Shown: positions 2,842-17,244 of the stretch, one piece after another
Layout of the letters: every line of letters begins with the position of its first letter
How positions within the stretch are numbered: position 1 is the stretch's first letter
NCBI RefSeq assembly: GCF_002287925.1
Contig: NZ_CP016769.1
Location: 1,240,001-1,304,000, forward strand
DNA: 64,000 nucleotides
Direction of reading: 5' to 3'
Source of the DNA: Candidatus Planktophila lacus
GTDB taxonomy: Bacteria > Actinomycetota > Actinomycetes > Nanopelagicales > Nanopelagicaceae
Notes under the pieces: model-generated
The model's database searches: none
Told to the model about the DNA's origin: nothing
What the model saw: only the letters and a program-made list of their open reading frames with translations
Position numbers and translations under genes: made by a program

Positions 2842-3851
2842 AGACCAGTAATTTGAACTGCCGCCAAGGCAACGCCGGCAACAATTACCCAAGCGATTAA
2901 CCCCATCACCATGGGGCGTGGGCCGATTGCTCGGATGGATTTCCAGCGCACGCTTGAACCAAGTGCAACTAAACCGGCGCCAAGAAGTAACTTACTTACC
3001 AGAACGACTGCATCATGAATTCCTGAGGGAATATCAAGTGTGTTTTGGATCGTTGCAACTGCAATAAAGCCAATTACAAAGAATGGAATTAGTGGCACTT
3101 TCGTTGTCTTGGTACTAACCGCTATTCCATCTTTTTCATTTTGCATTGCAACTGAAGTTAAGTAGCGGCGGTGGCGAATCGAAAGAATTAGAACAATCGG
3201 AGCCAACATACATACTCGCGCCAATTTGATTACGACGGCAGATTGCACCGCCTCATCGCTCCAGACAGATGCAGTCGCAATTACCTGACCAACATCGTGT
3301 ACGGCAGCACCAGCCCAGGCACCAAAAGTCTGATCACTTAGCCCAATTAGGTGGCCAATAAATGGCAAGGTAAAAATAGAGAGGGTGCCGCAGAGTGAAA
3401 TCAAAGCGATTGCATATGAGGTTTCTTCTTCGGTAGCGCGTGTTTGTGGGCGGATCGCAGCAACTGCAGTTGCACCGCAGACTCCAAATCCAACGCCAAT
3501 CAAAAGTCCAAGTTCACCGCTCATTTTGAATGCTTTTGATAGCCCCAGGATTCCAAAAATTGTGAAGGTTACAACCAAGATGACAGTTAGTACTCCCTTG
3601 AAGCCAATTGCCTTGAGCGAGACAAGACTTACTTGTGCGCCAAGAAGTGCGACTCCGATGCGCATTAACTTCTTGCTCGCTAGCCCTGTTCCGGCAGCGG
3701 CAAAGCTTGGCCATCTACCAAAGTTTGCAACAGCAAATCCAAATGCGACGCAAAGCGCTAGCGGGCTTACCGCTGGTTGAAAGTCATTTATTAGAAAGGC
3801 AACGCCAACAATTGCAGCTATCAGACCTAAACCGGGAAGGTTCTTAACCAT
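2838..3851 (-). CDS. YeiH/UPF0324-family membrane transporter, candidate sulfite or sulfonate exporter
   Basis: A 337-residue, highly hydrophobic protein with about 9-10 predicted membrane segments, of the YeiH family ('putative sulfate exporter', UPF0324). The family signature regions [37 protein letters not shown] and [15 protein letters not shown] are present. It is the last gene of the suyA-suyB-slcC-comC unit and starts directly after the comC stop codon, so it is almost certainly co-transcribed. Sulfo-lyase activity releases toxic sulfite inside the cell, and sulfonate-degrading operons usually include an exporter for sulfite or its oxidation product. Export of sulfite is therefore the working assignment, based on context; the family's substrate is not firmly known. 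Confidence 0.8.
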
Positions 3852-4859
3852 TTAGATCCCTAACTTCGTTGACCATTGCGCTAGCTGATCAGCAACCGAA
3901 TCGGTGATCGTGATGTTTTCTGCATTGTCGGGACGCTCTGGATTAGAACGATTTGCTCCAGGTAAGCGGCCTCCAGCAGCGTTCACCAGCGCTGAAAAGT
4001 CTGCAGTTCTTGTGTTTTCGCCATCTACCGAAAGCTTCGCGCTATCGATAGCGATAATGAAATGTGAAATTTTCTGAGGATTAGCATCTTGTTCGCTAGC
4101 GAACATATCTGGAATGTCTTTTGCCAGTGATGGTCCAACCAACATTCCGGTTAGCGATTCAACAAGTACTGCAATTGCATAACCTTTAACTCCACCGAGC
4201 GGCGCGAGCATTCCGGCAAGTGCTTCCTTGGCATCGGTTGTCGGGCTGCCATCTTTTGTAAATGCCCAGCCAGGTTCAAGTTCGGCACCTGCTTGCGCTT
4301 TTGCTTGAATCTTTCCGCGTGCAACTGCGCTAGTTGCTAGATCAACAACAGTTGGTGGATTTGTTGGAATTCCCGCAGCGATTGGTGAAGTTGAAAGTAG
4401 CGCAGAGTTTCCACCCCATGGCGGCATAACCGCAGGTCCTGTACTAAATGCGATTCCAACTAGCCCGCGATTAATCATCGGCCAGACATAAATTCCGAGA
4501 GCGCCACAGTGGTTTGAACGTCCAACTCCGACAGCGGCAATTCCATTTATTGCAGCGCGTTCAGCAGCAACTTCTGCCGCCTTCTGTAACTGCCAATGTC
4601 CAAGGCCATCATCGCCATCAAAGACCACAAGGCTTGGTAGATCTGTTACTACCTTTAACTTTGCATCGGCTTTAATTCCACCTGCTTGCAAGCGTGCAAG
4701 ATAGAAAGGAAGTCTCATTAAGCCATGGCTTCCGATTCCCCAACGATCGCTGGCAACGATGCAACGTGCGGTTACATCTGCTTCTTGATCAGGAACACCG
4801 GCGGCTTTAAGAAGTGATTTCGCTAATTCGGTTGCCGAGCCAACAGTTAGCTGCGCCAT
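3852..4859 (-). CDS. comC: LDH2/MDH2-family 2-hydroxyacid dehydrogenase, probable (R)-sulfolactate dehydrogenase
   Basis: A 335-residue NAD(P)-dependent oxidoreductase of the type-2 malate/lactate dehydrogenase family (YlbC, ComC). The substrate/catalytic histidine motifs are visible: GIGSHGLMRL (H45) and GRSNHCGALGIY (H117); the dinucleotide region includes the GGNSALLSTSPIAAG stretch. In bacteria that use racemic sulfolactate, a ComC enzyme works with SlcC to interconvert the (S) and (R) isomers through sulfopyruvate, since SuyAB accepts only the (R) form. Here the gene follows slcC with a TAATG overlap and precedes the exporter, giving exactly that arrangement. The family also includes malate, ureidoglycolate and diketogulonate reductases, so the substrate assignment rests on the neighbours. 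Confidence 0.75.
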   Translation of the reverse strand: MAQLTVGSATELAKSLLKAAGVPDQEADVTARCIVASDRWGIGSHGLMRLPFYLARLQAGGIKADAKLKVVTDLPSLVVFDGDDGLGHWQLQKAAEVAAERAAINGIAAVGVGRSNHCGALGIYVWPMINRGLVGIAFSTGPAVMPPWGGNSALLSTSPIAAGIPTNPPTVVDLATSAVARGKIQAKAQAGAELEPGWAFTKDGSPTTDAKEALAGMLAPLGGVKGYAIAVLVESLTGMLVGPSLAKDIPDMFASEQDANPQKISHFIIAIDSAKLSVDGENTRTADFSALVNAAGGRLPGANRSNPERPDNAENITITDSVADQLAQWSTKLGI

Positions 4860-5797
4860 TATTTTGCGTTTTCTTTGATTGCGCCAACCGCATGTGTGGC
4901 AACTTCGTTACTTAAGACTTTCATAATATTTGAAACAAGGATTTCATTGATACGCAATTGGCTTTCCTTAGTAATCCCTGCAACGTGTGGAGTTAGGATC
5001 AAATTCGCGATTTGCTCCATCTCGCCCTTAACTGGTGGCTCTTGAGCGCGCACATCTAGGGCAGCTCCAGCAATGACCTTGGCTTTTAACGCTTCGATTA
5101 AATCTGCTTCGTTAATTACTTCACCGCGTCCCACATTTACCAATACGGCATCTGGCTTCATCAACTTCAAAGTTGCAGCGTTAATTGAGCCATTTGTTTC
5201 GGGGGTCGATGGCATATGGATGCTGATTACATCGCTCTCCATTAAGACTTCTTCAAAAGACTTTAATTCGATACCGCTTAGATTTTTTGCGTAAGGGTCG
5301 AAGCCGATCATTTTGCAGCCAAATCCCTGAAGTAACTTTGCAGTGGCTATGCCAGTTGCACCACATCCAAGTAACCCCCAAGTCAAGCCCGATAGCTCGC
5401 GGCCTGGAGTGCGATTCCAATTTCCTTCGCGCGTGACCTGATCATGCCCTGGGATATTTCGTAACAAGGAAAGCGCTAAACCGAGAGTTAGCTCGCCAAC
5501 ACTCACTGCATTCGCACCAAGACCAGCAACAACTACAACACCGGCGGCATCGGCTGCCTTGATATCAATGTTGTCCAAGCCGACACCTGCACGCGCAATT
5601 ACCTTTAAATTAGGTGCCGCAGCAATTACATCTGCAGTTACTTTGGTTCTATTTCTTACAACTAGAGCGGTTGCATCTTTTAGTGCGCTCTTTAACTCAT
5701 CAACGTTATTCCAAAGATCGTCGTTTCGGACAATGGGAAAACTCCCCTCCAGCTTCTGGAAGGGAGTTCCCCATACATCTTCAGAGATGAGAATCAT
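4859..5797 (-). CDS. slcC: D-isomer 2-hydroxyacid dehydrogenase, probable (S)-sulfolactate dehydrogenase
   Basis: A 312-residue NAD-dependent dehydrogenase related to phosphoglycerate dehydrogenase but without the C-terminal ACT or intervening domains. The Rossmann loop is GLLGCGATG (residues 141-149) with Asp167 at the end of the second strand, favouring NAD. The catalytic triad residues are Arg224 (NVGRGE), Glu253 (RAQEPP) and His271 (LTPHVAG). Located between suyB and the ComC-like gene with TAATG overlaps on both sides, it fits SlcC, which oxidises (S)-sulfolactate to sulfopyruvate as the first half of stereo-inversion. Without the context it would be called a generic hydroxyacid dehydrogenase; other 3-carbon hydroxyacids remain possible. 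Confidence 0.75.
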   Translation of the reverse strand: MILISEDVWGTPFQKLEGSFPIVRNDDLWNNVDELKSALKDATALVVRNRTKVTADVIAAAPNLKVIARAGVGLDNIDIKAADAAGVVVVAGLGANAVSVGELTLGLALSLLRNIPGHDQVTREGNWNRTPGRELSGLTWGLLGCGATGIATAKLLQGFGCKMIGFDPYAKNLSGIELKSFEEVLMESDVISIHMPSTPETNGSINAATLKLMKPDAVLVNVGRGEVINEADLIEALKAKVIAGAALDVRAQEPPVKGEMEQIANLILTPHVAGITKESQLRINEILVSNIMKVLSNEVATHAVGAIKENAK

Positions 5798-6963
5798 TAT
5801 GCGGAGATATACAACTTTGTGAAGGTGAATTCACGGTGGCCCATAACTTCAGCCTTGCAGAGGCGTCCATTAACGGTCTGATTGATGACATCCATCATCA
5901 TGTCGCCAGCCTTAGTTAAGTCATATTCATAACGCAATAGACCTGAAACATCTAGATCGATGTGTTCAGTCATTGAGTTAGCAGTCTTAATGTTCGCTGT
6001 TAACTTGAGTACCGGAATAATTGGGTTACCAATCACATTGCCTTGTCCGGTTGGGAACAAGTGGATAACTGCGCCGCCTGCCGCCATCAGAGTTACGCAC
6101 TCTGCAGCTGCTGATGAAGAGTCCATGAAGTAAAGGCCCTTCTTCTTTGGGTCTGGAGCTTCGGCTGGCTTGAGAACGCCAACAACTGGAACTGAACCAG
6201 TCTTAGCGATATTTCCAAGCGCCTTCTCTTCAATAGTTGTTAGCCCGCCAGCGATATTTCCCTGCGTTGGCTGTGAACCTAGAAGGTTTGCACCAGTTGC
6301 TTCAATTACCTTGATGTAGTTGTCGTAAGTTGTTTGGAACAAGTTACGGCAAGCATCATCGATGCAACGGTCAGCGATCAAGTGCTCGCCACCAGTTAGC
6401 TCAGATGTTTCACCGAAGAATACGGTTCCCCCTGCTGCTACCCAGCGATCGACTGCTTGTGATGTTGTTGGGCATGAGCCAAGACCTGATGTTGTATCTG
6501 ATTCGCCGCACTTGATCGACATAATCATGTCGCCCATTTCGGCTGCTTCACGCTCTAGGCCAGATGCATCTTGCAAGAACATTGCAGCAACGCGGCTAGC
6601 TTCCTGAATAACTTGAAGATCGCCCTTACCTTCAATAGAGAACGCTGCAACCGGCTTACCAGTCTTAGCGATGCCATCGGCAACTCTCTGTGTCCACTTT
6701 GGTTCGATGCCAATTACAACTACAGCGGCAACGTTTGCGTTAACACCTGTTCCAATTAGCGTATTAAAAGTTAGCTCTAGATCTTCACCGAATTGCAAAC
6801 GCCCAAATGCGTGTGGGAGTGCAAGAGTTCCTGGAATTACCTTCGCAACAGCTTCTGCAGCAGCATTTGAAAGATCATCAAGGGGCAAAATAATGACGTG
6901 ATTGCGGATACCCATAGCGCCGTTTTCGCGGCGGTATCCCATTAAGCGCGGCTTGCTTCCCAT
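5797..6963 (-). CDS. suyB: (2R)-sulfolactate sulfo-lyase, large subunit (UxaA-type lyase domain)
   Basis: A 388-residue protein, the size of SuyB and of the C-terminal part of altronate/galactarate dehydratases. It starts GYRRENGAMGIRNHV, the hallmark of this family, and contains KCGESDTTSGLGSCPTTSQA, the GETSELTGGEH segment and PTGQGNVIGNPIIPVLK. With SuyA it cleaves (R)-sulfolactate to pyruvate and sulfite. The ATG overlaps the end of suyA by 22 bases and is preceded by GAGGAG with good spacing. Separate small and large subunits and the adjacent SlcC, ComC and exporter genes favour sulfolactate over altronate; fused single-chain UxaA is usual for hexuronate pathways, and no uronate isomerase or tagaturonate reductase is nearby. 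Confidence 0.82.
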   Translation of the reverse strand: MGSKPRLMGYRRENGAMGIRNHVIILPLDDLSNAAAEAVAKVIPGTLALPHAFGRLQFGEDLELTFNTLIGTGVNANVAAVVVIGIEPKWTQRVADGIAKTGKPVAAFSIEGKGDLQVIQEASRVAAMFLQDASGLEREAAEMGDMIMSIKCGESDTTSGLGSCPTTSQAVDRWVAAGGTVFFGETSELTGGEHLIADRCIDDACRNLFQTTYDNYIKVIEATGANLLGSQPTQGNIAGGLTTIEEKALGNIAKTGSVPVVGVLKPAEAPDPKKKGLYFMDSSSAAAECVTLMAAGGAVIHLFPTGQGNVIGNPIIPVLKLTANIKTANSMTEHIDLDVSGLLRYEYDLTKAGDMMMDVINQTVNGRLCKAEVMGHREFTFTKLYISA

Positions 6964-7244
6964 CGATAACTCCTCATGTTGTGTGTGTGAATGTAATCGC
7001 CTTTTTTGATCGCAGCTGATGCGAGACCAACTTTGATTCCGTATTTAATAATCGCTTCGCCTTCTGCAATATCTGCAAGGGCAAATTTGTGGCCGAGCGG
7101 AATCGCGTGATTTAAGATCGCGGTGCTCTCTGTTCCTTCTTTCACGGATCGCCCGTGAAGAGTTCCTGGTTGCATATCCGCCATAGCAACAGCGACATTG
7201 TCACCGTCGTGATGGAGCAGATATTGCGGTGGCGTAATTGCCAT
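6942..7244 (-). CDS. suyA: (2R)-sulfolactate sulfo-lyase, small subunit (SAF domain)
   Basis: A 100-residue SAF-domain protein matching the N-terminal part of UxaA-family dehydratases and the separate SuyA subunit. The conserved IKYGIKVGLAS and HTHNMRS ends are visible; the usual Glu before YG is Lys here. It forms the sulfo-lyase with SuyB, giving pyruvate and sulfite. It is the first gene of the leftward suyA-suyB-slcC-comC-exporter unit. The ATG is preceded by AGAGGAAAG, a clear ribosome binding site. An operator-like motif at 7278-7295 lies about 33 bases upstream, in the 120-base divergent promoter region shared with the rightward Gfo/Idh/MocA gene. Confidence 0.82.
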   Translation of the reverse strand: MAITPPQYLLHHDGDNVAVAMADMQPGTLHGRSVKEGTESTAILNHAIPLGHKFALADIAEGEAIIKYGIKVGLASAAIKKGDYIHTHNMRSYRWEASRA

Positions 7245-7277
7245 ATCTGACTTTCCTCTCTCGCATAAAGGGGGTAG

Positions 7278-7295
7278 TGGTCTGACCTCTTGGTG
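7278..7295. promoter_or_regulatory. Operator-like motif upstream of suyA (probable GntR/FCD site)
   Basis: TGGTCTGACCTCTTGGTG matches the sequence before the isomerase operon (15935-15952) at 16 of 18 positions, in the same orientation relative to the regulated gene. Its core TGGTnnnACC resembles the TGGTnnnACCA site of FadR-like FCD regulators, and an FCD regulator is encoded in this locus (10240-10956). Confidence 0.6.
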
Positions 7296-7350
7296 GAGTC
7301 TAGGTTAGGTGAGCGTATTTCGTCTAGCCCTCTGCCCAAATTATCGTAAG

Positions 7351-7360
7351 TGGTCTAACC
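7351..7360. promoter_or_regulatory. Operator-like motif overlapping the promoter of the Gfo/Idh/MocA gene
   Basis: TGGTCTAACC has the same TGGTnnnACC core as the motif at 7278. It overlaps a -10-like TAACCT (7356-7361) that stands 6 bases before the ATG at 7368. Binding of a repressor here would block initiation of what looks like a leaderless transcript. Ten-base matches of this degeneracy also occur by chance, so position is the main support. Confidence 0.5.
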
Positions 7361-7367
7361 TGTGGCT

Positions 7368-8471
7368 ATGAAGAGCGAGCTTCGATATGGGGTTATAGGC
7401 GTCGGCAGTATGGGGCGCGAGCATATTTCCAACATCAAGGTGATGGGCGGGGCTGTCGTCACAGCGATCAGCGACCCTCATCAGCCCTCAATTGAAGCCG
7501 CTCTACAAATGGTCCCGGGGGCAAAGGTCTTTAGCGATCACCGCGCGCTCTTGGATTCTGGCTTAATCGATGCCGTCGTAATCGCAACTCCAAATGACAC
7601 TCATGCTGAGGTCTTAAAAGTTGCGCTCGCTACAGATTTAGCAGTCTTTGTTGAAAAGCCACTCGCTACAACGGTCGAAGATTTGAAATCAATTCTGTCT
7701 TGGGATGAAAAGCGCAGCGCTCTTACCTGGATGGGCTTGGAATATCGATTTATGCCACCGGTCACTGAAGCGATTGCGAGAGCAAAAGAAGGTGAAGCCG
7801 GAAAAATACATCAGATTTCGATTCGCGAACATCGCGAACCTTTCTACCCAAAGGTAGATAGCTGGAACCGCTTTACCGAAAGAACTGGTGGCACGCTAGT
7901 AGAAAAATGTTGCCATTACTTTAACTTGATGGATTTAGTTATTGGTGAACAACCTATCCGCGTATTTGCTTCAGGCGGCCAGAGCGTTAATCACTTAAAT
8001 GAAAAATATGAAGGTCGCCAAGCAAATATGCTCGATAACGCATATGTAATTTTAGAATATGCCAGCGGTGCTCGTGGAATGCTCGATCTCTGTATGTTTG
8101 GCGAAGGTTCCTTCGATAAAGAGATTTTAACAATCATTGGAGATCAGGGAAAGATTGAATCATTCCTTCCTTCACAAATTGTTAAAGCTTCACGTCGTGA
8201 TTCAGTTGGAAACCTCGATAACTGGGCAAGTGGTGCTAGCCGTGCGCGTGGCAGCGAAACAAAGATTGTCCATAACTACGATGTTAAGTACATGGGCCAC
8301 CACTACGGTGCTTCATATATCGAACATACAAAATTCCGCGATGCGATTTTAAATTCCACTGCCGCTGAAGTTACCTTGCTAGATGGCGTAACAAGCGTTG
8401 TTACGGGGCTTGCTGCACACAAGAGCATCAACGAAGGTCGCGTCGTTGAAATCAAAGAGCTTTGGGGCTAA
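7368..8471 (+). CDS. Gfo/Idh/MocA family oxidoreductase, candidate NAD-dependent sulfoquinovosidase or sugar dehydrogenase
   Basis: A 367-residue protein with the Rossmann start YGVIGVGSMGREHI, the VEKPLA motif characteristic of Gfo/Idh/MocA enzymes near residue 95, and a C-terminal alpha/beta sheet domain with GGTLVEKCCHYFNLMDL (the conserved Gly-Gly-x-Leu and His region). ATG 7368 is chosen over GTG 7362 because a -10-like TAACCT stands exactly 6 bases before it and there is no ribosome binding site. It is the only rightward gene between the two sulfonate operons and ends flush against the aldolase gene. No GH31 sulfoquinovosidase is present in the window. I recall that glycosidases acting by a transient NAD oxidation, including sulfoquinovosidases (family GH188), share this fold, so an entry glycosidase role is plausible but unproven; a plain sugar dehydrogenase is the alternative. 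Confidence 0.7.
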   Translation: MKSELRYGVIGVGSMGREHISNIKVMGGAVVTAISDPHQPSIEAALQMVPGAKVFSDHRALLDSGLIDAVVIATPNDTHAEVLKVALATDLAVFVEKPLATTVEDLKSILSWDEKRSALTWMGLEYRFMPPVTEAIARAKEGEAGKIHQISIREHREPFYPKVDSWNRFTERTGGTLVEKCCHYFNLMDLVIGEQPIRVFASGGQSVNHLNEKYEGRQANMLDNAYVILEYASGARGMLDLCMFGEGSFDKEILTIIGDQGKIESFLPSQIVKASRRDSVGNLDNWASGASRARGSETKIVHNYDVKYMGHHYGASYIEHTKFRDAILNSTAAEVTLLDGVTSVVTGLAAHKSINEGRVVEIKELWG

Positions 8472-9353
8472 TTACCAACTGCTCCAAGGCTTTGCGTAGG
8501 TATCAACGGTTTCAGCGAGCTTTTCCAAGCGTGGAATAGAGATTTCGCGCAGCGCCTTTGGAATATCAGGGGCTCCAACAATGTCGGCCCAAACCGCTCG
8601 TCCGGCAAGGAAACCGCTGGCTCCCCCAATTGCACAAGCCTTTACCGCATCATTAAAGAACGGTTGCTTAACTCCATTAGAAAGAACTACCCACGGAGAT
8701 CCAATCGCTTCTGAAATTCGTTCTGCATTCTTGGTTACTAAAGCAAGATCTCCTTCGCCATGAAAGGGAACCTCTGCTTTATACAAATCTGGCTTCCAGG
8801 TTGCAGCTTCTCTAGCGGCAAGAATTAACTCTTCTTCGCGATCAAAAGATCTTGAAGAATCAGTTGGTGGTTTCACGATTATTTCGATAATCGATGGCAG
8901 ACCAGATACTTCGCATAACTTGTTAAATTCGGCTACGAGTTTGGCGCGGCTATCCGGAGATTCATCGTTGCGCCACAGCACCAAGAATTTCAATCCAACG
9001 CTATTGATATCGCGCATTCTGATCGGATCAACATCAGGATCGACAGCGGTATCAGTAGCTGCACCACCAGCGGGCCCCACCAATAAATCAGCCGCAGCGA
9101 TTAATCCGCACGAGCCTTTTAGCGCACCCTGATTGATAATCGCATCAATGCCAAACTCTTGATCAACTAAGAGCGCTGATGCATATGGTGAAAGTTCGCG
9201 AGCGACATCTACTTTAAATTGAGTTAACTGTGAGTCAGGGACCGGTGTGCTCTGATGTGCCGCAAACATTCCGCGCAGAGCTTCACGTTGATCCACGGCA
9301 ACCATTGCAAGTGCACCAGATGGACGGGCTAATTTGGTAAGTGGTGCTCTCAT
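8472..9353 (-). CDS. yihT: Class I aldolase resembling sulfofructose-phosphate aldolase YihT
   Basis: A 293-residue TIM-barrel class I aldolase. Compared from memory with E. coli YihT it shares long collinear motifs: MVAVDQREALRGMF, LSPYASALLVDQ, LKFLVLWRNDE, DLYKAEVPFHGEG with the Schiff-base lysine at K192, and GASGFLAGRAVWA with Arg252. Length is the same within a residue or two. YihT splits 6-deoxy-6-sulfofructose-1-phosphate into DHAP and sulfolactaldehyde. Related tagatose-bisphosphate aldolases (LacD) are the main alternative, but the combination with a YihV-like kinase and with sulfolactate genes favours the sulfosugar substrate. The ATG overlaps the kinase stop (ATGA) and has an AAGGAG ribosome binding site. 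It is the last gene of the operon. Confidence 0.82.
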   Translation of the reverse strand: MRAPLTKLARPSGALAMVAVDQREALRGMFAAHQSTPVPDSQLTQFKVDVARELSPYASALLVDQEFGIDAIINQGALKGSCGLIAAADLLVGPAGGAATDTAVDPDVDPIRMRDINSVGLKFLVLWRNDESPDSRAKLVAEFNKLCEVSGLPSIIEIIVKPPTDSSRSFDREEELILAAREAATWKPDLYKAEVPFHGEGDLALVTKNAERISEAIGSPWVVLSNGVKQPFFNDAVKACAIGGASGFLAGRAVWADIVGAPDIPKALREISIPRLEKLAETVDTYAKPWSSW

Positions 9354-10243
9354 GATCTCTCCTTTAGGAATTTATCTAACTCTGCGGTATTTGGAATCTT
9401 CGATTGACCATCTAGGCCACGACAAGAAAGTGCGGCGACGGCATTGGCGCGCATTAAAGAAGCTTCGAGAGTGTGGCCTTGAATTACTTGAGCGAGAAGC
9501 GCTCCATGAAAAACATCGCCGGCGCCTAGCGTGCTTACAACATCAACGGCAAAGCCATCTGCGTGAACTAAGCCTGATTCACTTGAATAACCAGTACTTC
9601 CCGCAGAACCTTGCGTTGCAACCGTTATATTTTTTGCGTTAACCGAATCTCTTTCAACTGCTGCGCCCAGTTGAAGGTCGGGATAACGAAGCGCCATCTG
9701 TCGATCAGTTGGAACAAATAGATCTACTTCTGAAGCATCGAAATCAGCAACGTTATAGCCGGCATCAAATGAAATCTTCGGTCCGTTTCCACGAGCGATC
9801 TTTTCAGACTTTAAACGATTAATTCCAACGTGATCTACATGGAGCCACTCAGCCTGACTAATCAACTTCTTCGCCTGTGCGCTTAGATTCACTTGTTGCA
9901 TTGGTTGACGGGTACTAATTGCGCGTGCGCTATGGGCCTTCGAAGCAACGATTACGCTTCCTGATGTTGCGCTATCACCGATTGAAATCCCTGAAGTATC
10001 AACGCCTTCACGGGCAAAAATCCGCAGAACTTCTGCGCCATCTTCATCATCGCCAATTGTTCCGGCTATTGCCGTTGAAACTCCGAGGCGGCTTAGCGTC
10101 ACTGCGGCAACAGCTGCTGGGCCACCTCCTGCGCGCGCTATCTGGTGGGCTAAAACTCTTTCGTCTTCGCCTGGGTAGTTATCGACTAAGGCAATTGTGT
10201 CGATAGTTATTACGCCGAGACAAACAACTTGAATATTGCTCAA
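9350..10243 (-). CDS. yihV: PfkB-family sugar kinase resembling sulfofructose kinase YihV
   Basis: A 297-residue ribokinase-fold kinase. The N-terminal VCLGVITIDTI and ARAGGGPAAVAAVTLSRLG segments and the catalytic loop STLGAGDVFHGALLA (general base D243) are collinear with E. coli YihV, which phosphorylates 6-deoxy-6-sulfofructose at C1. It stands directly before the YihT-like aldolase, the order expected for a sulfo-EMP pathway. The start is TTG, overlapping the TGA of the regulator gene (TTGA). Other PfkB substrates (tagatose-6-phosphate, fructose-1-phosphate) cannot be excluded from sequence alone; the aldolase and the sulfolactate genes are the reason for the assignment. Confidence 0.75.
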   Translation of the reverse strand: MSNIQVVCLGVITIDTIALVDNYPGEDERVLAHQIARAGGGPAAVAAVTLSRLGVSTAIAGTIGDDEDGAEVLRIFAREGVDTSGISIGDSATSGSVIVASKAHSARAISTRQPMQQVNLSAQAKKLISQAEWLHVDHVGINRLKSEKIARGNGPKISFDAGYNVADFDASEVDLFVPTDRQMALRYPDLQLGAAVERDSVNAKNITVATQGSAGSTGYSSESGLVHADGFAVDVVSTLGAGDVFHGALLAQVIQGHTLEASLMRANAVAALSCRGLDGQSKIPNTAELDKFLKERS

Positions 10244-10956
10244 CGCTCATTCTTTTCATTTGCATCGGCAAGGGCTACTGCACGTGCGCCAGAAATATGT
10301 TGCAGCGTTAACTTAGAGACCAGTTCTCCATCTCTTGCTTCAATGGCATCCAAAATAGCGTTGTGCTCGCGCTTTGATACATCTGATCTGCCTGGCAAAC
10401 GCAAAGTGGTTTCCATCGACATCTTCATAACATCTTGTAAGACGTTGAGAGTCTGGTTGATAAATCTATTTTCGGCGATTCCGACGATTGTTAGGTGAAA
10501 CTTCGCATCTAACGCCTGCAATTGGTTGTAATCAATTGGCGTCGTTGAAGTAACTGTCTCGATCTGATTTAAAGTTGCACGAAGTAAGCGGATATCTTCC
10601 TTGGTTGCCTTTGCCGCTGCCCACTTTGATGCCGGAACTTCCAGAACTTCACGAGCATCAAAGAGCTCATTTAAGCCATGGGTGGTGGCCATCATCGAAG
10701 CGCGTAGTTCTTGCGCAACAATCGGTTCTTGAACAAAAGTGCCTTGTCCATGCTTTATTTGAACCAGACCTTGCGCCTGCAGAATATGCAGAGCTTCGCG
10801 TAGAGATGGACGACTAACTGCTAACAATTCCGCAAGGGTTCGCTCTGATGGCAAGCGGTCGTTGGGCTTTAGATTCTGAATTTCAATTAGTTCGATTAAT
10901 TGTGTAGCAATACGCGCTGCACGTTGTGGAGCAAGCGGGGTTACAGCGCTCATCAT
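10240..10956 (-). CDS. GntR-family transcriptional regulator, FCD (FadR-like) subfamily
   Basis: A 238-residue regulator. Residues about 10-80 form the winged helix-turn-helix (LPSERTLAELLAVSRPSLRE is the recognition region) and residues 95-235 the all-helical FCD ligand domain with the metal-binding set D150, H154, H198 and H220 intact. Such proteins usually bind a small carboxylate or sugar acid and repress neighbouring operons. It lies inside the importer-kinase-aldolase operon, so it is autoregulated if it acts on that promoter. TGGTnnnACC motifs before the isomerase, suyA and Gfo/Idh/MocA genes are the likely operators. An effector such as sulfolactate or a sulfosugar phosphate is a guess. 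AAAGGG precedes the ATGATG start. Confidence 0.88.
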   Translation of the reverse strand: MMSAVTPLAPQRAARIATQLIELIEIQNLKPNDRLPSERTLAELLAVSRPSLREALHILQAQGLVQIKHGQGTFVQEPIVAQELRASMMATTHGLNELFDAREVLEVPASKWAAAKATKEDIRLLRATLNQIETVTSTTPIDYNQLQALDAKFHLTIVGIAENRFINQTLNVLQDVMKMSMETTLRLPGRSDVSKREHNAILDAIEARDGELVSKLTLQHISGARAVALADANEKNER

Positions 10957-11772
10957 TTAACCCTTTACCGCTCCTGCTGTAAGACCAGCGATAAACGAGC
11001 GTTGCATCATGAGGTACATGATAACCATCGGAAGTGATGCCACCATTACCGCAGTGAAGAGCATCGAGAAGCTAACAAAGTATTCGCCGCGGTATGCCAA
11101 CATCGCAAGTGGCAGAGTTTTCTTATCTGATTCTTGAATAAGCAACAGTGGCCAGAGAAGATCGTTCCAGTTGATTACAAAGAGAAATATCGCTGTTGCA
11201 CCCATCGCAGGTCGGGATAACGGTAGGGCGATAGAGCGATAGATGCGAAGTGGCGATGCGCCATCTACTTCAGAAGCTTCATACATATCTCGAGATATCT
11301 CGCGAAAGAAAGCGGTAAGAATAAAGATAGAAATTGGCAGGGTTGTGGTCACATTAATGATCACTAAGCCAAAGAACGAGTTAGTCAGCCCCAAATCTCG
11401 GAAGATGTAATAGATCGGGACTAGGTTGATCTGGGCAGGAATTGCCAAACCGAGTGCAAATAAAGTTGCCAAGACTTTTCCGGAAACTGTGATCATTCTG
11501 GCGATAGCAAATGATGCCAGGCTGGCAAATAGCAAGGTGAAAATTACAGATAACAGGGTTACAACCACGCTATTTCTAAAGCTGACCTCTAAATCGCTTT
11601 CACTGATCAAGCGCTGGTAATTATCTAGATTCCAATTTTCTGGGAGAGAAAGCGGCTTGTTATAGACCTCAGAGTCAGTCTTAAAGGAACCCAAGACCAC
11701 AATAAGCGAAGGAATCAGAATTAGCGCAGCAAAGAAAGTAAGCGAGATTATTCGAGAACTCTTAAAGATCAT
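10957..11772 (-). CDS. Sugar ABC transporter permease, MalG/CarB type
   Basis: A 271-residue inner-membrane permease with six predicted membrane segments. The EAA loop, which docks on the ATPase, reads EASEVDGASPLRIYRSIALP. It pairs with the MalF-type permease and the binding protein upstream to import a sugar or sugar glycoside; the cluster suggests sulfoquinovose or its glyceryl glycoside. No ABC ATPase is encoded in the window, so a shared MsmK-type ATPase encoded elsewhere is implied. The gene itself is intact, but its first 56 codons and upstream region are duplicated in tandem just upstream (11911-12216). Without the duplication the two permease genes would be 10 bases apart. Confidence 0.9.
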   Translation of the reverse strand: MIFKSSRIISLTFFAALILIPSLIVVLGSFKTDSEVYNKPLSLPENWNLDNYQRLISESDLEVSFRNSVVVTLLSVIFTLLFASLASFAIARMITVSGKVLATLFALGLAIPAQINLVPIYYIFRDLGLTNSFFGLVIINVTTTLPISIFILTAFFREISRDMYEASEVDGASPLRIYRSIALPLSRPAMGATAIFLFVINWNDLLWPLLLIQESDKKTLPLAMLAYRGEYFVSFSMLFTAVMVASLPMVIMYLMMQRSFIAGLTAGAVKG

Positions 11773-12216
11773 TTCTTATCCCCTACTTCTCGTATCGTCC
11801 GCTAAATGCTCGGCGTTGTAGCCAAGTTATAAGCACCATAGTGGCCACCATAAAGATTGTCTGAGCTGCTGCGTAACCAAGGCGAAGTTCGTTAAACAAT
11901 GTGAAATAAAGATCAAGCGCTGGTAATTATCTAGATTCCAATTTTCTGGGAGAGAAAGCGGCTTGTTATAGACCTCAGAGTCAGTCTTAAAGGAACCCAA
12001 GACCACAATAAGCGAAGGAATCAGAATTAGCGCAGCAAAGAAAGTAAGCGAGATTATTCGAGAACTCTTAAAGATCATTTCTTATCCCCTACTTCTCGTA
12101 TCGTCCGCTAAATGCTCGGCGTTGTAGCCAAGTTATAAGCACCATAGTGGCCACCATAAAGATTGTCTGAGCTGCTGCGTAACCAAGGCGAAGTTCGTTA
12201 AACAATGTGAAATAAA
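11605..12216. repeat. Exact 306-bp tandem direct duplication inside the ABC permease pair
   Basis: Positions 11605-11910 and 11911-12216 are identical by eye, with no gap between copies. Each unit holds, in leftward order, the last 42-43 codons of the MalF-type gene, a 10-base spacer and the first 56 codons of the MalG-type gene. Because the unit boundaries lie inside the two genes, one complete copy of each gene survives. The extra material leaves a chimeric fragment between them. The perfect identity means either a very recent event or an assembly artefact. Confidence 0.93.
11827..12078 (-). pseudogene. Truncated MalG-type permease fragment created by the tandem duplication
   Basis: An 83-codon frame whose first 56 residues are identical to the N-terminus of the intact permease at 10957-11772. 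At the copy junction (11910/11911) it runs out of frame into the duplicated 3' end of the MalF-type gene and picks up 27 unrelated residues before a stop. It retains the ribosome binding site and start codon of the real gene, so it may be translated into a one-helix peptide, but it cannot form a permease. Confidence 0.88.
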
Positions 12217-12937
12217 CCAAGGTGCTGAAAATGCTTGTTGAGTTATTTGGTCCCGCGGTTGAATTTGTCATAACCATGATCAAATCGAAGGCGCGGAATG
12301 ATTGAATTGTTGTGTAGGCCATAACAACCAGAGTTGTTGGCATAGCCATCGGCCAGGTAATGCTGGTGAACTGCTTCCAGCGAGATGCGCCATCAACTTC
12401 AGCAGCCTCATACAACTCTTTTGGAATCTGCTGCAAGCCGGCGATATAGACAACCATCATCTGGCCGGTGTGGAACCAGACTTGGCTAAAGGCGATTGCG
12501 TAGAGCGCGCTGCTTTCGCTGCCTAGCCAGTTAAGTGCAAAAGATGGCAATCCAATGCTGTTAAAGAATAGGTTGATCGCACCGAAATTAGGGTCGTATA
12601 AGAAGAGCCAGATCATTCCGACAGAGACAGAAGAGAGAATTGTTGGGAAGAAGTAAAGAGTGCGAAGAGCAATATTGGTTTTGGAGTTTTTAACTAAGAA
12701 GACGGCAAATATCAAAGCTAGCGCGGTTTGGAATATAACAACCAGGAAGGTGAACTCGAGGTTATTTCCTAAAGTTTTGTAAAAGAGATCGTCATTGGTA
12801 AGTAAATTTGTAAAGTTTCTAAAGCCCACATTTTCAGGCTCGGTGATGCCATCCCAGCGGCGTGTGGCAAATTGCAGATTTTGCAGCGCTGGATATAGAT
12901 AGAAGGCAAGAAAAAGGATTAGCGCTGGTGCGCCCAT
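12089..12937 (-). CDS. Sugar ABC transporter permease, MalF/UgpA type
   Basis: A permease of at least 282 residues with about six membrane segments and the EAA loop YEAAEVDGASRWKQFTSITW. It is the first of the two importer permeases and follows the binding-protein gene. The ATG at 12937 falls within the first membrane segment. In frame upstream lies a basic stretch (TRKKRKKDALVYYV) of the kind that normally precedes that segment, so the true start is probably further upstream. No ATG, GTG or TTG is available there before the end of the binding-protein gene, only an ATT at 13037-13039, so the boundary is uncertain. A 15-bp perfect hairpin lies in this 100-base gap. The last 42 codons are included in the 306-bp duplication. 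Confidence 0.85.
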   Translation of the reverse strand: MGAPALILFLAFYLYPALQNLQFATRRWDGITEPENVGFRNFTNLLTNDDLFYKTLGNNLEFTFLVVIFQTALALIFAVFLVKNSKTNIALRTLYFFPTILSSVSVGMIWLFLYDPNFGAINLFFNSIGLPSFALNWLGSESSALYAIAFSQVWFHTGQMMVVYIAGLQQIPKELYEAAEVDGASRWKQFTSITWPMAMPTTLVVMAYTTIQSFRAFDLIMVMTNSTAGPNNSTSIFSTLVYFTLFNELRLGYAAAQTIFMVATMVLITWLQRRAFSGRYEK

Positions 12938-12986
12938 TACATAATAAACAAGCGCATCTTTCTTACGCTTTTTACGGGTAGCAGGA

Positions 12987-13017
12987 GTACCGCTCCCACC
13001 ATTGGTGGGAGCGGTAC
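12987..13017. promoter_or_regulatory. Perfect 15-bp inverted repeat between binding-protein and permease genes
   Basis: GTACCGCTCCCACCA and its exact reverse complement are separated by one base (13002), giving a 14-bp stem with a 3-base loop in RNA. There is no T-run on the downstream (leftward) side, so it is not a standard terminator. In importer operons such a hairpin after the binding-protein gene often stabilises its mRNA and lowers permease expression; that role is inferred here. Confidence 0.8.
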
Positions 13018-13038
13018 CGGTAGCTAGTTTGGTTTTAA

Positions 13039-14487
13039 TCAGCCAGCCAATTTCTGCTTGATCTGCTTAGAGAAGTCAGGCAGAACATCGTCTGGGCTCT
13101 TGCCACCAACGATTTGAATGAGGGCATCCTGAGTCAAATCTGAAACCGAAGTGTTCAGAATCAAGAAACGTGGAGCCAACATTGTGTTCTTAGCCTGGAA
13201 GGCAGATGTATTTAGCAAGTCAACGTTTGATGAGTAATCAACATCGAGAACGTTTACGTGCTGTGTGGTTGCAGTTGCGTAAATTGCTGCAACTGGACCT
13301 GTAGCCAAGTATGAAAGGAAGGATTTAGCAATGCGCTGATCCTTCGGATTTGACTTAGCATTTACGCTTAGGTTGAAGGTGTTGTTCATAATTCCTTCAG
13401 CGACAACTTTGCCATCTGTTAGAACCATGCTCATCAACTGCATCTTGCCGGTTAGCGCTGGGTTCAGAGTCTTGATAGATCCCATTGAGAATGTACCGGT
13501 AGGAAGAATTGGTGACTTACCTGTCGCGAACAAGTTGTAAGCAGCAGCTTCAGTAACACCTGTTGGGTTATCTGGGAAGCATCCTGCGTTACGTAGCTTG
13601 ACGTAGATATCTGCAACGCCCTTGAACCAAGTTGAAGTCAGATCGATCTTTCCTGAGTTCAAATCTGCCAAGTTTTCAGATAGCGCTTCGTAATCTGCTG
13701 CAGAGTTCATCAGAGCAGAGTTTGAGATCTGCGCTGCTTGTCCACGTGTTGCTCCTGGCCATGCAAGAGGAACATATCCCTTGGCCTTGGCATCCTTACA
13801 CCAGGCGACCCAACCAGTTAGGTTCTTAGGAATATCCCACTTCTCTTTTGCCCAGAGTTCAGTGTTATAGACAGGGTTGTTAAATAGGTAGTGATAAGGA
13901 ACTGCAAGTACGCGACCCTTATCGACTCCTGCTGTTAGACCCTTTGATACGAGGTTGCGCTTTACGAAACGCTCGTTAGTTAGATCTGCAGCAAGTCCGC
14001 TCTTAACGAAGTCGTTGAAGATTGAACCACGTGCTGCAGCGAATAGCGCAGCCTTTGGATTTGCAAGGATCTGCACACGTGCAGTTGCGTTGTAATCAGT
14101 TGTTGTCTTGATTACCTGAGTGATTTTTGTACCTGGGTACTTTGCTTCGTAAGCTGTAATGATCTTTTCGAAGTGAGCCTTATCTTCTGGGCGGTAGTGC
14201 CAGAATTCAATTGTTCCAGCTGGTGGAGCAATTTCCTTAATTGGAGCACCGAGGCTTGAGCTCAGGCGTACCTTCTGCCAAGTCAGTTTTCCATTTGATC
14301 CAGCCTTGCAAACAAGTGAAGTTGAACTTGTTCCTGTTGAAACTCCTTCAACCTTGCAAGCCTTTCCTAAGACTTCTCCAGCTGCAAATGCCGATGGCAA
14401 TGTCGAGACAGCGACTGCGAATGCAACCACAGCTACTGCGCCAAGGCGACGTGCACTAAAGGAAGTCATTCCTTGAGTTTTCATCAT
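13039..14487 (-). CDS. Extracellular sugar-binding protein of the ABC importer (family 1)
   Basis: A 482-residue secreted binding protein. The signal peptide covers about the first 36 residues (basic MTSFSARRLG, hydrophobic core, then PSAFAA). It is followed by a short module with two cysteines (GKACKVEG and LVCKAGS) ending GKLTWQKV, often seen on secreted actinobacterial proteins. From about residue 70 the family-1 solute-binding fold begins (GTIEFWHYRPEDKAHFEKII). ATG 14487 is chosen because AAAGGA stands 6 bases upstream and a signal peptide follows. The operon suggests sulfoquinovose or sulfoquinovosyl glycerol as ligand, which the sequence alone cannot prove. The gap to the following permease contains a strong hairpin. 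Confidence 0.9.
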   Translation of the reverse strand: MMKTQGMTSFSARRLGAVAVVAFAVAVSTLPSAFAAGEVLGKACKVEGVSTGTSSTSLVCKAGSNGKLTWQKVRLSSSLGAPIKEIAPPAGTIEFWHYRPEDKAHFEKIITAYEAKYPGTKITQVIKTTTDYNATARVQILANPKAALFAAARGSIFNDFVKSGLAADLTNERFVKRNLVSKGLTAGVDKGRVLAVPYHYLFNNPVYNTELWAKEKWDIPKNLTGWVAWCKDAKAKGYVPLAWPGATRGQAAQISNSALMNSAADYEALSENLADLNSGKIDLTSTWFKGVADIYVKLRNAGCFPDNPTGVTEAAAYNLFATGKSPILPTGTFSMGSIKTLNPALTGKMQLMSMVLTDGKVVAEGIMNNTFNLSVNAKSNPKDQRIAKSFLSYLATGPVAAIYATATTQHVNVLDVDYSSNVDLLNTSAFQAKNTMLAPRFLILNTSVSDLTQDALIQIVGGKSPDDVLPDFSKQIKQKLAG

Positions 14488-14522
14488 TGGTAGTCCTTTG
14501 CTAATCGAGGGTTTTAGTTGTT

Positions 14523-15923
14523 TTACCATTCTGTGAGGGGTATCCCTAACATCTTTGCCATTTGACGAATACCCGGACGCACATCTATCCACGAGATGAC
14601 TAGATGATGCGGATATCCGCCAGTGACTATTCCATTTACTAACGCAGCAGCATCAGGTTGAGTGATAACCGTTGCGGTATTACCTTGGAAGTGATTGGGA
14701 GCAGGGATAGATTCCCCTCGGCTCACAACCATTCGTAAACCCGTGCTGTTGCTCGGATCTACATCCCGATCAATACGGAACAGCGTTACTGGTCCGGTCT
14801 TGAGCGGAAAATTACCTGCAACGCCTAATTTGCGATTGCAGTGTGTTGTTTGCGTTGCATTCTGTGGATCTGCAGCTAACTTTGTCGCGGCGGACCCACA
14901 ATGCCAGAGTCGAACTAAACCTTTATCTGCATCTAGATCGACGATATCAACCAAGTAGTTTTCATCTGAACCAAGTGACTCGCAAACCATCATGGTTACA
15001 GCGCCCAGTACATCACGTTCGCAGGTTGTAACTGTGCCGCGATCTGAAAGGCGTCCCAGTGATGAACAGATGCAAGCACCCATATCGGTTGGAAATTCTG
15101 GCCAGCAACGGATAGCAATCGCATCCAGCGACTCTTCTTCGCGCCAGGTATCTAGCGCAACTTCAACTCCATAAACTTTCTTCGCTTCACCAACGTTTAC
15201 TGAAGATAGCGAAGGCTGTGCTGCCACTGCGTTTGCATAGGCTAATTCACGCTCTTCTTCCTTAACTTCAGCAATTCGGCCAAATGCATCAGTAATTGTT
15301 ATTTGACGAACATCAAGTCCAAAATACTTATTTAACTGCTGGCCATCAAATACGCAAGGAGTAAATCCAATTGGAGCATCTCCAACAGCGCCGATCTTCT
15401 TGCCCTTTAACCAAGCGAAAGCTTTTTCTACTTCACCAGCAGGTGCAAATTCTCCAACAATAGATTTTGGAGCAGTCGCCTCTGGAAGTTTGCCGGCGAG
15501 CGCATCACGAATTGCACTGCGCACATTCGCTTCATCGGCGTTTCCATGGATATGTCGAATTGATTGCCCAACATTCATCAAAGCATGTGCCGCAAGATTT
15601 ACGCCGCACATTGAATTTAACTTAAGTCTTTCGCCAACTTCACCTGGCTCGCGCATTGACCAACCAAGGATTGGTCCCTTTACTTTTCCAAAGAGTTCGA
15701 CTGCAGGTGATGCATCTGCAAATGAGGCCATAAATAAAATGTGAATGTCAGCCGCTGGAAGTTTTACCGCAGCGAGATCTTCAACTGTCATAACTAGTTC
15801 GGTTGGTCCAACTACCGATGCGCCTAGTTCATTTAACAGCGCACGCGCGCTATCAAAATTAGCCTGGGCGCAGGTCAGATCAAAGGTAGGTCGCGCTAAC
15901 GCGACGAGAGCTACAGTGCTCAA
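14523..15923 (-). CDS. L-fucose/L-arabinose isomerase-family protein, candidate sulfoquinovose isomerase
   Basis: A 466-residue protein of the FucI/AraA-like aldose-ketose isomerase family. Visible family segments are IRCWPEFPTDMGACICSSLG, TTCERDVLGAVTMMVCESLG, RLWHCGSAATKL and GGYPHHLVISW; the Glu, Asp and His residues there are those used by this fold to bind Mn2+. It is the first gene of the importer-kinase-aldolase operon, the place where an SQ-to-sulfofructose isomerase is needed, and no YihS-type (AGE-fold) isomerase is present. Isomerases of this fold have been reported in sulfoglycolysis variants, as I recall. The start is TTG with GGAGG 4 bases upstream; an operator-like motif ends 11 bases before it. 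Confidence 0.75.
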   Translation of the reverse strand: MSTVALVALARPTFDLTCAQANFDSARALLNELGASVVGPTELVMTVEDLAAVKLPAADIHILFMASFADASPAVELFGKVKGPILGWSMREPGEVGERLKLNSMCGVNLAAHALMNVGQSIRHIHGNADEANVRSAIRDALAGKLPEATAPKSIVGEFAPAGEVEKAFAWLKGKKIGAVGDAPIGFTPCVFDGQQLNKYFGLDVRQITITDAFGRIAEVKEEERELAYANAVAAQPSLSSVNVGEAKKVYGVEVALDTWREEESLDAIAIRCWPEFPTDMGACICSSLGRLSDRGTVTTCERDVLGAVTMMVCESLGSDENYLVDIVDLDADKGLVRLWHCGSAATKLAADPQNATQTTHCNRKLGVAGNFPLKTGPVTLFRIDRDVDPSNSTGLRMVVSRGESIPAPNHFQGNTATVITQPDAAALVNGIVTGGYPHHLVISWIDVRPGIRQMAKMLGIPLTEW

Positions 15924-15934
15924 TTTGCCTCCAG

Positions 15935-15952
15935 TGGTAAGACCTCTTGGTG
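15935..15952. promoter_or_regulatory. Operator-like motif upstream of the isomerase-importer operon
   Basis: TGGTAAGACCTCTTGGTG matches the motif before suyA (7278-7295) at 16 of 18 positions and in the same orientation relative to the downstream gene. It ends 11 bases before the TTG start and abuts the ribosome binding site, so a bound repressor would cover the transcription start region. Confidence 0.6.
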
Positions 15953-16038
15953 AAGGGTGCCACTGGCGACCTAGCGAGTCAATGGGAAAGCGCGAGTTTT
16001 TCGCTTGTTATGAGACCGTTATGAGCAAGGCGAAGGGG

Positions 16039-17103
16039 TTATCTTTGAAGTATGAAGGGTCTGGTCCGACCATTGACCTCAAAAGCGGGCCAATTCGGAT
16101 CGTTGGTAAGTACCTCAACCCCCGACTTGGTCGCCAAGATCGTATCCTCAGCCTTCCAGCCTTTACCCGTTGGGTTCCATGCGATCGGTTGGTTGTGCGC
16201 AATCAATCTGGTTGTTCCCTGATTTGCTGGCCAATCGCGAGGCAGGAATCCGGTCGGTCCACCTTGGTGATGGTTCTGCCACTCATCCTTATCGAAACCA
16301 TTTAGCGGGTAAGCAGCGATCGCAGCGTTAATTGGATCTGAGAAAGGCCGACCAACCACAGTGGCATCGAACATCGCGGCCTCAACTTTAAATATTGATT
16401 CGTAGCCGCTTATCTCCTCTCGAGATAACTGCCCAAAGCTGACAATTCTGGTTATTGATGCGATTAGCCCCTTATGTTTTGCGCATATTGAGGCCGAGAC
16501 GCGGTCTCCAATTGGCGTTGAGGTCGGTAGTGGATGGCGAAACTTGGTGACTCGCTCTTGGCCGGCAACGCCTAGAAATGCGATCTCTAAATTAGAGCGC
16601 CATAAGGAACTAGTTATTAGCGCTGCCACATCGATTTCTCGATCGCTACTTTTTACCTCTTTCATAGCGCTTCCTAGAGCTGATGCGGCTTCCAGGCAGA
16701 TCTTCTTAAAGCGCTCTACATCATCTGCAATAAGTGAGCCGCGAATAATCTCGATCTCAACGCCGAGATCAATTCGGTCGCCACCAGGTTGATCAGAACC
16801 AACTTTTGCTCCTGTTGGCAATAACGGATCGCGTCCTTGTGACCACGGCACGGTTTGTACTGAAACTTCTGCAGGAAACTCTTCAGCAATTAATCGTGGC
16901 GCTTCGACAACATTTGTTATTGCAACAGCTGAATCTTTTGTAATGATTAAATCAAAACACGCCGCATCGATAGTTGTTGGAACATGTGCTCGTCCAGAAA
17001 TGGCCCAAGCCAGATTTGGATTACGGCGAAGCACAAATGCATCAAGCCCTTTTTCAGCCATTAAATCTCGTACTGGTTGGATCCGAAGATTAAATGCGCT
17101 CAT
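16039..17103 (-). CDS. M24 (aminopeptidase P/creatinase-like) family protein lacking metal ligands
   Basis: A 354-residue protein with an N-terminal creatinase-like domain (about 1-115) and a C-terminal pita-bread domain. In active M24 metallopeptidases the segment DxGxxxxGYxxDxTR carries two metal-binding aspartates; here it reads SICAKHKGLIASITR, with serine at both positions. The Glu of the EPG motif is replaced in PIAWNPTGKG, while the His (NHHQGG) and the last Glu (KAEDT) remain. A metal-dependent peptidase is therefore unlikely; a creatinase-like hydrolase or a non-catalytic protein is more likely. A -10-like TAGCAT stands 7 bases before the ATG. It reads toward the isomerase operon, 115 bases upstream of it, and may feed into it. 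Confidence 0.75.
   Translation of the reverse strand: MSAFNLRIQPVRDLMAEKGLDAFVLRRNPNLAWAISGRAHVPTTIDAACFDLIITKDSAVAITNVVEAPRLIAEEFPAEVSVQTVPWSQGRDPLLPTGAKVGSDQPGGDRIDLGVEIEIIRGSLIADDVERFKKICLEAASALGSAMKEVKSSDREIDVAALITSSLWRSNLEIAFLGVAGQERVTKFRHPLPTSTPIGDRVSASICAKHKGLIASITRIVSFGQLSREEISGYESIFKVEAAMFDATVVGRPFSDPINAAIAAYPLNGFDKDEWQNHHQGGPTGFLPRDWPANQGTTRLIAHNQPIAWNPTGKGWKAEDTILATKSGVEVLTNDPNWPAFEVNGRTRPFILQR
16062..16072. promoter_or_regulatory. Perfect TGGTnnnACCA palindrome inside the 3' end of the M24-like gene
   Basis: TGGTCCGACCA is the full palindromic form of the FCD-type site and lies about 140 bases upstream of the isomerase start. It could act as an auxiliary operator for the isomerase operon or impede transcription reading in from the M24-like gene. 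A chance match inside coding sequence is quite possible. Confidence 0.35.
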
Positions 17104-17159: not shown

Positions 17160-17244
17160 TGGTGGCGGGTGAAGGATTTGAACCTTCGAAGGCAGAGCCG
17201 GGGGATTTACAGTCCCCTCCCATTGGCCGCTCGGGCAACCCGCC
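17160..17244 (-). tRNA. tRNA-Tyr (anticodon GUA)
   Basis: An 85-base type II tRNA with a long variable arm. The acceptor stem GGCGGGT pairs with ACCCGCC, the anticodon stem GGGGA/TCCCC encloses a loop with GTA, the T-arm contains GGTTCAAATCC, and the 3' CCA is encoded. It reads leftward between the CopC and M24-like genes. Confidence 0.97.

Follow-up and report, generated by a model that had tools for sequence, protein, structure and literature searches.

Which enzyme would catalyse the opening isomerization in the breakdown of sulfoquinovose (SQ), the sugar of plant sulfolipid, in Candidatus Planktophila lacus? The question is raised by a gene cluster in the 64,000-nucleotide stretch of contig NZ_CP016769.1 analysed here (positions 1,240,001 to 1,304,000 of the forward strand; in the following, the window). 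In this stretch an earlier note had singled out a 466-residue protein resembling fucose isomerase FucI and arabinose isomerase AraA, encoded at 14523-15923, as a non-orthologous replacement for YihS, the isomerase of the sulfo-Embden-Meyerhof-Parnas (sulfo-EMP) pathway of E. coli. Our analysis makes it highly probable that this protein is a divalent-metal aldose-ketose isomerase with the FucI/AraA fold and the predicted activity of converting open-chain SQ to 6-deoxy-6-sulfofructose. The proposed replacement is supported by the computed fold, the metal-ligand positions, the closest curated family and the gene neighbourhood, and the protein probably stands in for YihS as an isomerase of the SqvD/SftI kind. 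Since FucI-like isomerases in the place of YihS are already known from other bacteria (PMC9594981; PMC12890257), the replacement is not new as a kind, and the window isomerase is probably an actinobacterial variant, divergent in sequence, of an enzyme type already described.

A single open reading frame on the minus strand (466 codons plus stop) spans the interval; GGAGG stands at the usual spacing before its TTG start codon, and frame 1 of the plus strand over the same positions is interrupted by many stops. The earlier note had named no strand; the FucI/AraA-like gene it described is borne out by the reading frame, by Pfam and by the modelled fold. Fucose_iso_C (PF02952) was the sole Pfam match at E<=0.001 (30.9 bits, cut-off 29.3), and the same scan gave no match to the YihS-type AGE family PF07221. 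The AlphaFold2 model built from 38 aligned sequences (predicted local distance difference test (pLDDT) 93.9; predicted template modelling score 0.93) has the AraA/FucI fold. Foldseek returned 41 matches at E<=0.001, every one an AraA, FucI or D-arabinose isomerase, and 19 entries of these kinds aligned with Z scores of 30.1-33.7 over 295-301 residues (root-mean-square deviation 2.4-2.8), the next row following at Z 9.2. The likeness resides in residues 158-466 (Z 33.7 to AraA, 31.9 to FucI); for residues 1-145 the only matches were to widespread flavodoxin-like folds (about Z 9).

Residues of the metal-binding type are kept, as had been claimed. In a profile alignment E302, D326 and H440 fall on FucI residues 337, 361 and 528, which we take to be the Mn2+ ligands of that enzyme, and H341 is AraA-like; the first three are identical in 38 of 38 aligned relatives. 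By analogy with FucI we infer that a divalent metal, probably Mn2+, would be held by E302, D326 and H440, perhaps together with H341, and would bind O1 and O2 of the sugar, a proton moving from C2 to C1 via an enediol. FucI metal ligands are also kept in SqvD of B. urumqiensis (PMC9594981).

The sole NCBIfam match was NF048012, the curated model of the SQ isomerases SftI/SqvD (E 8e-81, residues 3-463), which marks the protein as a divergent relative short of certified membership. On this model, isomerases of other SQ clusters reach 344 bits (Anaerolineaceae), 343 (Chlorohelix), 288 (Zymomonas) and 284 (Thermogemmatispora), those of Chlorohelix and Zymomonas likewise staying under the cut-off of 700; a protein in a SqiK/SuyAB/YihQ context reaches 494 (L138), and a Klebsiella isomerase with transketolase and FGGY-kinase neighbours 114. 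A pattern scan of an 84,980-species collection yielded at least 541 relatives, of which 79 loci were kept. In a tree of 55 rows the SQ-type isomerases, together with those of Deinococcus and locus L160, form one group of 47 rows (Shimodaira-Hasegawa-like approximate likelihood ratio test 88), apart from eight rows with no SQ genes seen. Support is 98-99 for the actinobacterial branch and 92 for its join to five Chloroflexota rows, deeper joins being unsure. The tree was made by a quick method, and the placement of its long branches, among them those of Klebsiella, L160, L152 and Deinococcus, is unsure; only the well-supported actinobacterial part is used here. Nearness to characterized SqvD proteins is read from NF048012 alone, the tree having been made without the characterized Firmicutes sequences. 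Of 201 genomes sampled from the family, 48 carry an orthologue at 54-100% identity (the own genome included, some showing contig-edge fragments only), 12 have matches at 21-25% only and 141 have none.

A residue signature accompanies this grouping. Forty-five SQ-type proteins (38 alignment rows plus seven) were compared with nine others, namely FucI plus eight proteins in whose surroundings there was no match to sulfoquinovosidase (SQase), kinase, sulfofructose-1-phosphate (SFP) aldolase or SuyAB. Nine columns (A66, R99, L100, L102, N103, N109, N363, R364 and F412) are conserved in 43 or more of the 45 and in none of the nine. Not every locus of the SQ-type set shows SQ genes (L123 shows the isomerase only), and the label of the other set is a judgement because L151, L154, L155 and L156 have neighbours resembling aldehyde dehydrogenases (ALDHs), in three cases alongside hydroxyacid-dehydrogenase-like ones. 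L160, whose frame is 850 long and of which the last 470 residues were used, and the Deinococcus protein L049 stand outside both groups; the latter, 23% identical to the window isomerase, has six of the nine columns (R99, L100, N103, N109, N363 and R364). The sulfonate would be held by R99/N103 and the N363-R364 pair; since kinship alone could yield part of the signature, this role is a proposal.

The neighbourhood (Table 1) agrees with SQ as the substrate. From 17103 downwards the minus strand carries an M24 gene, the isomerase, the binding protein and two permeases of an ATP-binding cassette (ABC) transporter, a GntR regulator, a PfkB kinase and a class I aldolase; beyond the aldolase lie a GH188 gene on the plus strand and then, again on the minus strand, SuyA-, SuyB-, SlcC-, ComC- and YeiH-like genes.

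Table 1. Features of the putative SQ cluster, in window positions.
Feature	Coordinates	Strand	Basis or remark
tRNA-Tyr gene	17160..17244	minus
M24 pita-bread protein, upstream of isomerase	16039..17103	minus	Pfam, model
Candidate SQ isomerase, SqvD/SftI-like, FucI/AraA fold, 466 aa	14523..15923	minus	TTG start
ABC transporter solute-binding protein (SBP_bac_1)	13039..14487	minus	Pfam
ABC permease 1	12089..12937	minus	Pfam/NCBIfam
ABC permease 2	10957..11772	minus	Pfam/NCBIfam
GntR/FCD transcriptional regulator	10240..10956	minus	Pfam
PfkB kinase	9350..10243	minus	nearest solved structure sulfofructose kinase 7ag6
Class I aldolase (DeoC/LacD)	8472..9353	minus	nearest structures SFP aldolases 7ag1/7ag7, YihT 1to3
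GH188-type NAD-dependent sulfoquinovosidase (SqgA), Tyr variant	7362..8471	plus	match to 8qc3
SuyA-like small subunit (SAF domain), sulfolactate sulfo-lyase	6942..7244	minus	domain
SuyB-like large subunit (galactarate/altronate dehydratase superfamily)	5797..6963	minus	domain
SlcC-like 2-hydroxyacid dehydrogenase	4859..5797	minus	best NCBIfam phosphoglycerate dehydrogenase, 269.7 bits, cut-off 454
ComC-like L-sulfolactate dehydrogenase	3852..4859	minus	best NCBIfam sulfolac_dhydr, 203.8 bits, below cut-off 500
YeiH-family putative sulfate export transporter	2838..3851	minus	173.8 bits, below cut-off 232.6

The kinase matches 7ag6 with E 3.8e-26 (next sugar kinase 1.8e-20), and the aldolase, in which Lys192 lies within an LYK motif, matches 7ag1, 7ag7 and 1to3 with E 1.8e-74 to 1.3e-71, LacD-type aldolases being far weaker (2.5e-18). 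The GH188 protein (E 8e-101 to 8qc3) keeps the sulfonate residues Arg166 and Lys172 of ArSqgA and the CCH histidine, with Tyr replacing Leu170; a GH31 sulfoquinovosidase was sought in the genome and not found, and the GH188 protein, judged by its sequence, fills that place. The SuyAB, SlcC, ComC and YeiH names are weaker assignments, for which domains and company fit and scores lie below the curated cut-offs throughout: the SuyAB-like pair has SAF and GD_AH domains and SlcC/ComC-like neighbours, and the named models matching it are those of galactarate dehydratase only, far below cut-off. With a PfkB kinase and a class I aldolase the cluster differs from sulfo-EMP2, which is defined by PfkA-type SqiK and class II SqiA, and it is likely a hybrid sulfo-EMP1/2 set with its own sulfite-releasing module. 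Such hybrids have been stated for Proteobacteria and Actinobacteria (PMC12890257, citing Sharma et al. 2023).

In the pathway that we propose, sulfofructose would pass to the neighbouring sulfofructose kinase and on to the YihT-type aldolase, the resulting sulfolactaldehyde would be oxidized by an ALDH encoded outside the cluster, and sulfolactate would be converted to pyruvate and sulfite via the SuyAB/SlcC/ComC-like set. Among seven Aldedh matches in the genome (1.46 Mb, a single contig), the candidate for the oxidation, at genome positions 1369297-1370670, is nearest to the cluster ALDHs of Chlorohelix (42%), Deinococcus (41%) and Zymomonas (37%). It also matches 8c54, presumably the sulfolactaldehyde dehydrogenase of Rhizobium (E 3.2e-133); two further ALDHs of this broad type rank above 8c54, so that the enzyme stays a candidate.

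Two details of the transporter genes and one of the flank may be added. The frame of the binding protein is open to 14592, and a start at ATG 14487 or 14484 avoids overlap with the isomerase. The junction of the permease genes is covered by a perfect 306-bp tandem duplication (11605-12216) that leaves both frames intact and is either a recent duplication or an assembly artefact. Directly upstream of the cluster lies a tRNA-Tyr gene, which together with a YajQ/RarD flank adjoins the SQ cluster in the window and in L038, whereas in L039 three amino-acid-ABC-type genes separate flank and cluster. In same-genus genomes without an isomerase orthologue (six searched), the same tRNA-Tyr has other neighbours in five of five stretches, and the place looks like an island site.

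The association with SQ genes recurs in the relatives. Thirty of the loci listed offer a wide context (at least 7 kb before and at least 9 kb after the isomerase), comprising 14 Nanopelagicaceae-like loci, 13 from other Actinobacteria and three from Chloroflexota. An SQase-type gene (GH188 or GH31) is present in 29 of them, a YihV-type kinase in 24, a YihT-type aldolase in 23, M24 in 23, a SuyB-like gene in 17, an ALDH in 12 and YihS in none; beside the isomerase, a SuyB-like gene is found in 13 of the 14 Nanopelagicaceae-like loci. The exception to the SQase count, L060 (the L039 region), has isomerase, kinase and aldolase without downstream GH188/SuyAB-like genes in its stretch and is the sole such locus of the 14. 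Isomerases of the same superfamily stand next to class II aldolase, GH188-like and ALDH genes in Zymomonas and next to a PfkA/PFP-type kinase in Chlorohelix. On plasmid pDEIPE01 of Deinococcus peraridilitoris (L049), an isomerase about 23% identical is accompanied by PfkB, LacD/YihT-like aldolase, GH31-type and ALDH genes, apparently an independent hybrid sulfo-EMP cluster. SuyAB-like genes adjoin FucI-like isomerases in Haloactinopolyspora, Actinophytocola, several Chloroflexota loci and two further genomes of the same phylum (L116, L121, L131-L134, L136, L137, L148 and L160), so that sets leading from SQ to sulfite within one cell may be common.

The closest described systems share much of this arrangement. 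With SqvD/SftI the window isomerase has in common the superfamily, the FucI-type ligand positions, the predicted step and the presence of SQase and sulfonate genes nearby; it differs in its NF048012 score (272 as against 700 bits), in belonging to an actinobacterial branch whose nearest rows in the tree are from Chloroflexota, and in the company of a PfkB kinase and a class I aldolase, whereas the SqvD system has PfkA-type SqiK and class II SqiA. The predicted reaction is that of E. coli YihS, whose Pfam family (PF07221) is different and has no match in the genome. FucI and AraA of E. coli are alike in the fold of residues 158-466 and in the metal-ligand positions, but identity over the aligned part is only 18% and 14%, respectively, and R99, N103, N363 and R364 are absent from FucI. 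The same gene set as in the window has been reported for clusters with a GH188 Tyr variant from the acI strain IMCC26103 ('Y160') and from Clavibacter ('Y158'): GH188 with Tyr, kinase, SFP aldolase, sulfo-lyase, 'fucose isomerase' and ABC genes (PMC11465081, Backlund and Higgins 2024). Counted from the second in-frame Met, the Tyr of the window protein is residue 160, which compares with 'Y160' of IMCC26103, and the Clavibacter cluster of that report is without SFP aldolase, as are clusters of genus g17 in our set. The passages of that paper on these clusters list the isomerase as 'fucose isomerase' with no step assigned and do not mention a peptidase or M24 protein. Arthrobacter AK01 and AK04 have been described with a YihS-type isomerase (PMC8873060), so that Actinobacteria appear to use both kinds, and a survey published in 2026 that covers marine and freshwater genomes records sulfo-SMO clusters in Actinomycetota (PMC13372026). 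Our literature search found no paper pairing 'nanopelagic' with 'sulfoquinovose'; papers pairing 'sulfoquinovose' with 'fucose isomerase' include PMC11465081.

Members of the FucI/AraA superfamily act on several sugars. It is therefore conceivable, if improbable, that the isomerase acts on a different sulfosugar, such as sulfofucose, or on an ordinary aldose such as L-fucose or arabinose, and that the adjacent SQ genes serve a broader or different route, a reading with which the score below the SftI cut-off would also agree. Sulfo-EMP-type kinase and aldolase homologues are present in the sulfofucose cluster of Paracoccus, where they were not increased on sulfofucose (PMC12421959). Neither a fuculokinase nor a ribulokinase or fuculose-aldolase family, however, occurs among the scanned cluster proteins (2838-17103), whose kinase and aldolase are nearest to SQ-pathway enzymes, and the near-constant SQase-type gene of the wide-context relatives likewise argues for SQ.

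Less probable still is the formation of sulfofructose for a transaldolase/transketolase route instead of kinase and aldolase. It draws on genus g17 (L026-L035), where isomerase, kinase, GH188 and SuyAB-like genes are kept but no YihT match was seen in any of the eight loci reaching past the kinase gene or in the eight genomes searched; the window cluster, by contrast, encodes a YihT-type aldolase, and its scanned proteins include no transaldolase or transketolase family. The g17 clusters lacking a YihT match include that of Clavibacter sp. BS5 (L098).

The earlier note had named a YihS-type isomerase elsewhere in the genome as the finding that would speak against the SQ isomerase. Searches for such a gene found none: PF07221 gave no match in the genome, nor did the E. 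coli YihS sequence as query in a search lacking a positive control. Because an E. coli control genome was silent for PF07221, the first search appeared doubtful, and E. coli YihS was therefore scanned alone (466.6 bits to PF07221) and a PF07221 match confirmed in the related genome G006 (E 5.5e-93). That the gene merely accompanies the cluster and has no activity on SQ, the step being done by an unseen isomerase, is just as remote as the transaldolase/transketolase route, for although the absence of YihS rests on sequence searches, the position of the gene is conserved, its active-site residues are intact in the aligned relatives and neither the isomerase nor NF048012 as query gave a second match in the genome.

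Several observations weigh against the assignment as SQ isomerase. The NF048012 score of 272 bits does not reach the curated cut-off of 700, and scores on this model are not strictly tied to context, as the Deinococcus protein with SQ-like neighbours attains 139 bits only and proteins of family f13, with no SQase, kinase or aldolase matches nearby, attain about 194-216. The proposed sulfonate site is based on conservation among related sequences, and L160, which has SqiK-, SuyAB- and YihQ-like neighbours, keeps two of the nine signature columns (N103 and N363). Neither an aldehyde dehydrogenase nor a mutarotase family is represented among the scanned cluster proteins. Finally, a Protein Data Bank search with the isomerase sequence alone gave no match at E<=1; a 38-row profile gave weak FucI/AraA matches (best E 0.0044), and it was the fold model that settled AraA/FucI membership.

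The statement that the operon begins with the isomerase is doubtful, since the same-strand M24 gene lies 115 nt upstream and keeps its place in the clusters of relatives. Among the loci listed, M24 is present in 18 of 20 from Nanopelagicaceae, both misses falling at contig edges, and in 10 of 20 from other Actinobacteria (31-39% identity). Its model has a prolidase/creatinase-like fold (pLDDT 94.2), in which HHQGG, NP and E319 are kept while the usual metal ligands, according to the pattern that we take as typical of M24 enzymes, are not; a function as metallopeptidase was rejected on this ground. A role as mutarotase replacement was also considered. YihR and the Zymomonas mutarotase had no placed match in the 79 kept loci, and since such matches are absent with or without M24, there is no complementary pattern and the idea is unsupported; the genome contains one weak aldose-epimerase match outside the cluster (44.2 bits). 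The only SQ paper that our search matched with M24/creatinase-type terms is, by its description, a plant-pathogen omics study.

As a tentative and rather doubtful extension, these tiny-genome freshwater actinobacteria may possess a single-cell route from SQ glycosides to sulfite whose isomerase is a divergent FucI-like enzyme carrying a sulfonate-site signature of its own (R99/N103, N363-R364). The M24 protein, poor in metal ligands, would in this view be an unrecognised component that acts on SQ or on a conjugate of it, either ahead of the isomerase or together with it. A coupling of this general kind, of a sulfofucose route to SuyAB in one cell, has been described for Paracoccus (PMC12421959). 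Should the proposed route operate, these cells would need no partner to degrade SQ as far as sulfite. For a gene published under the name 'fucose isomerase' the analysis offers a function open to experiment, and the greatest novelty lies with the M24 gene found alongside it.
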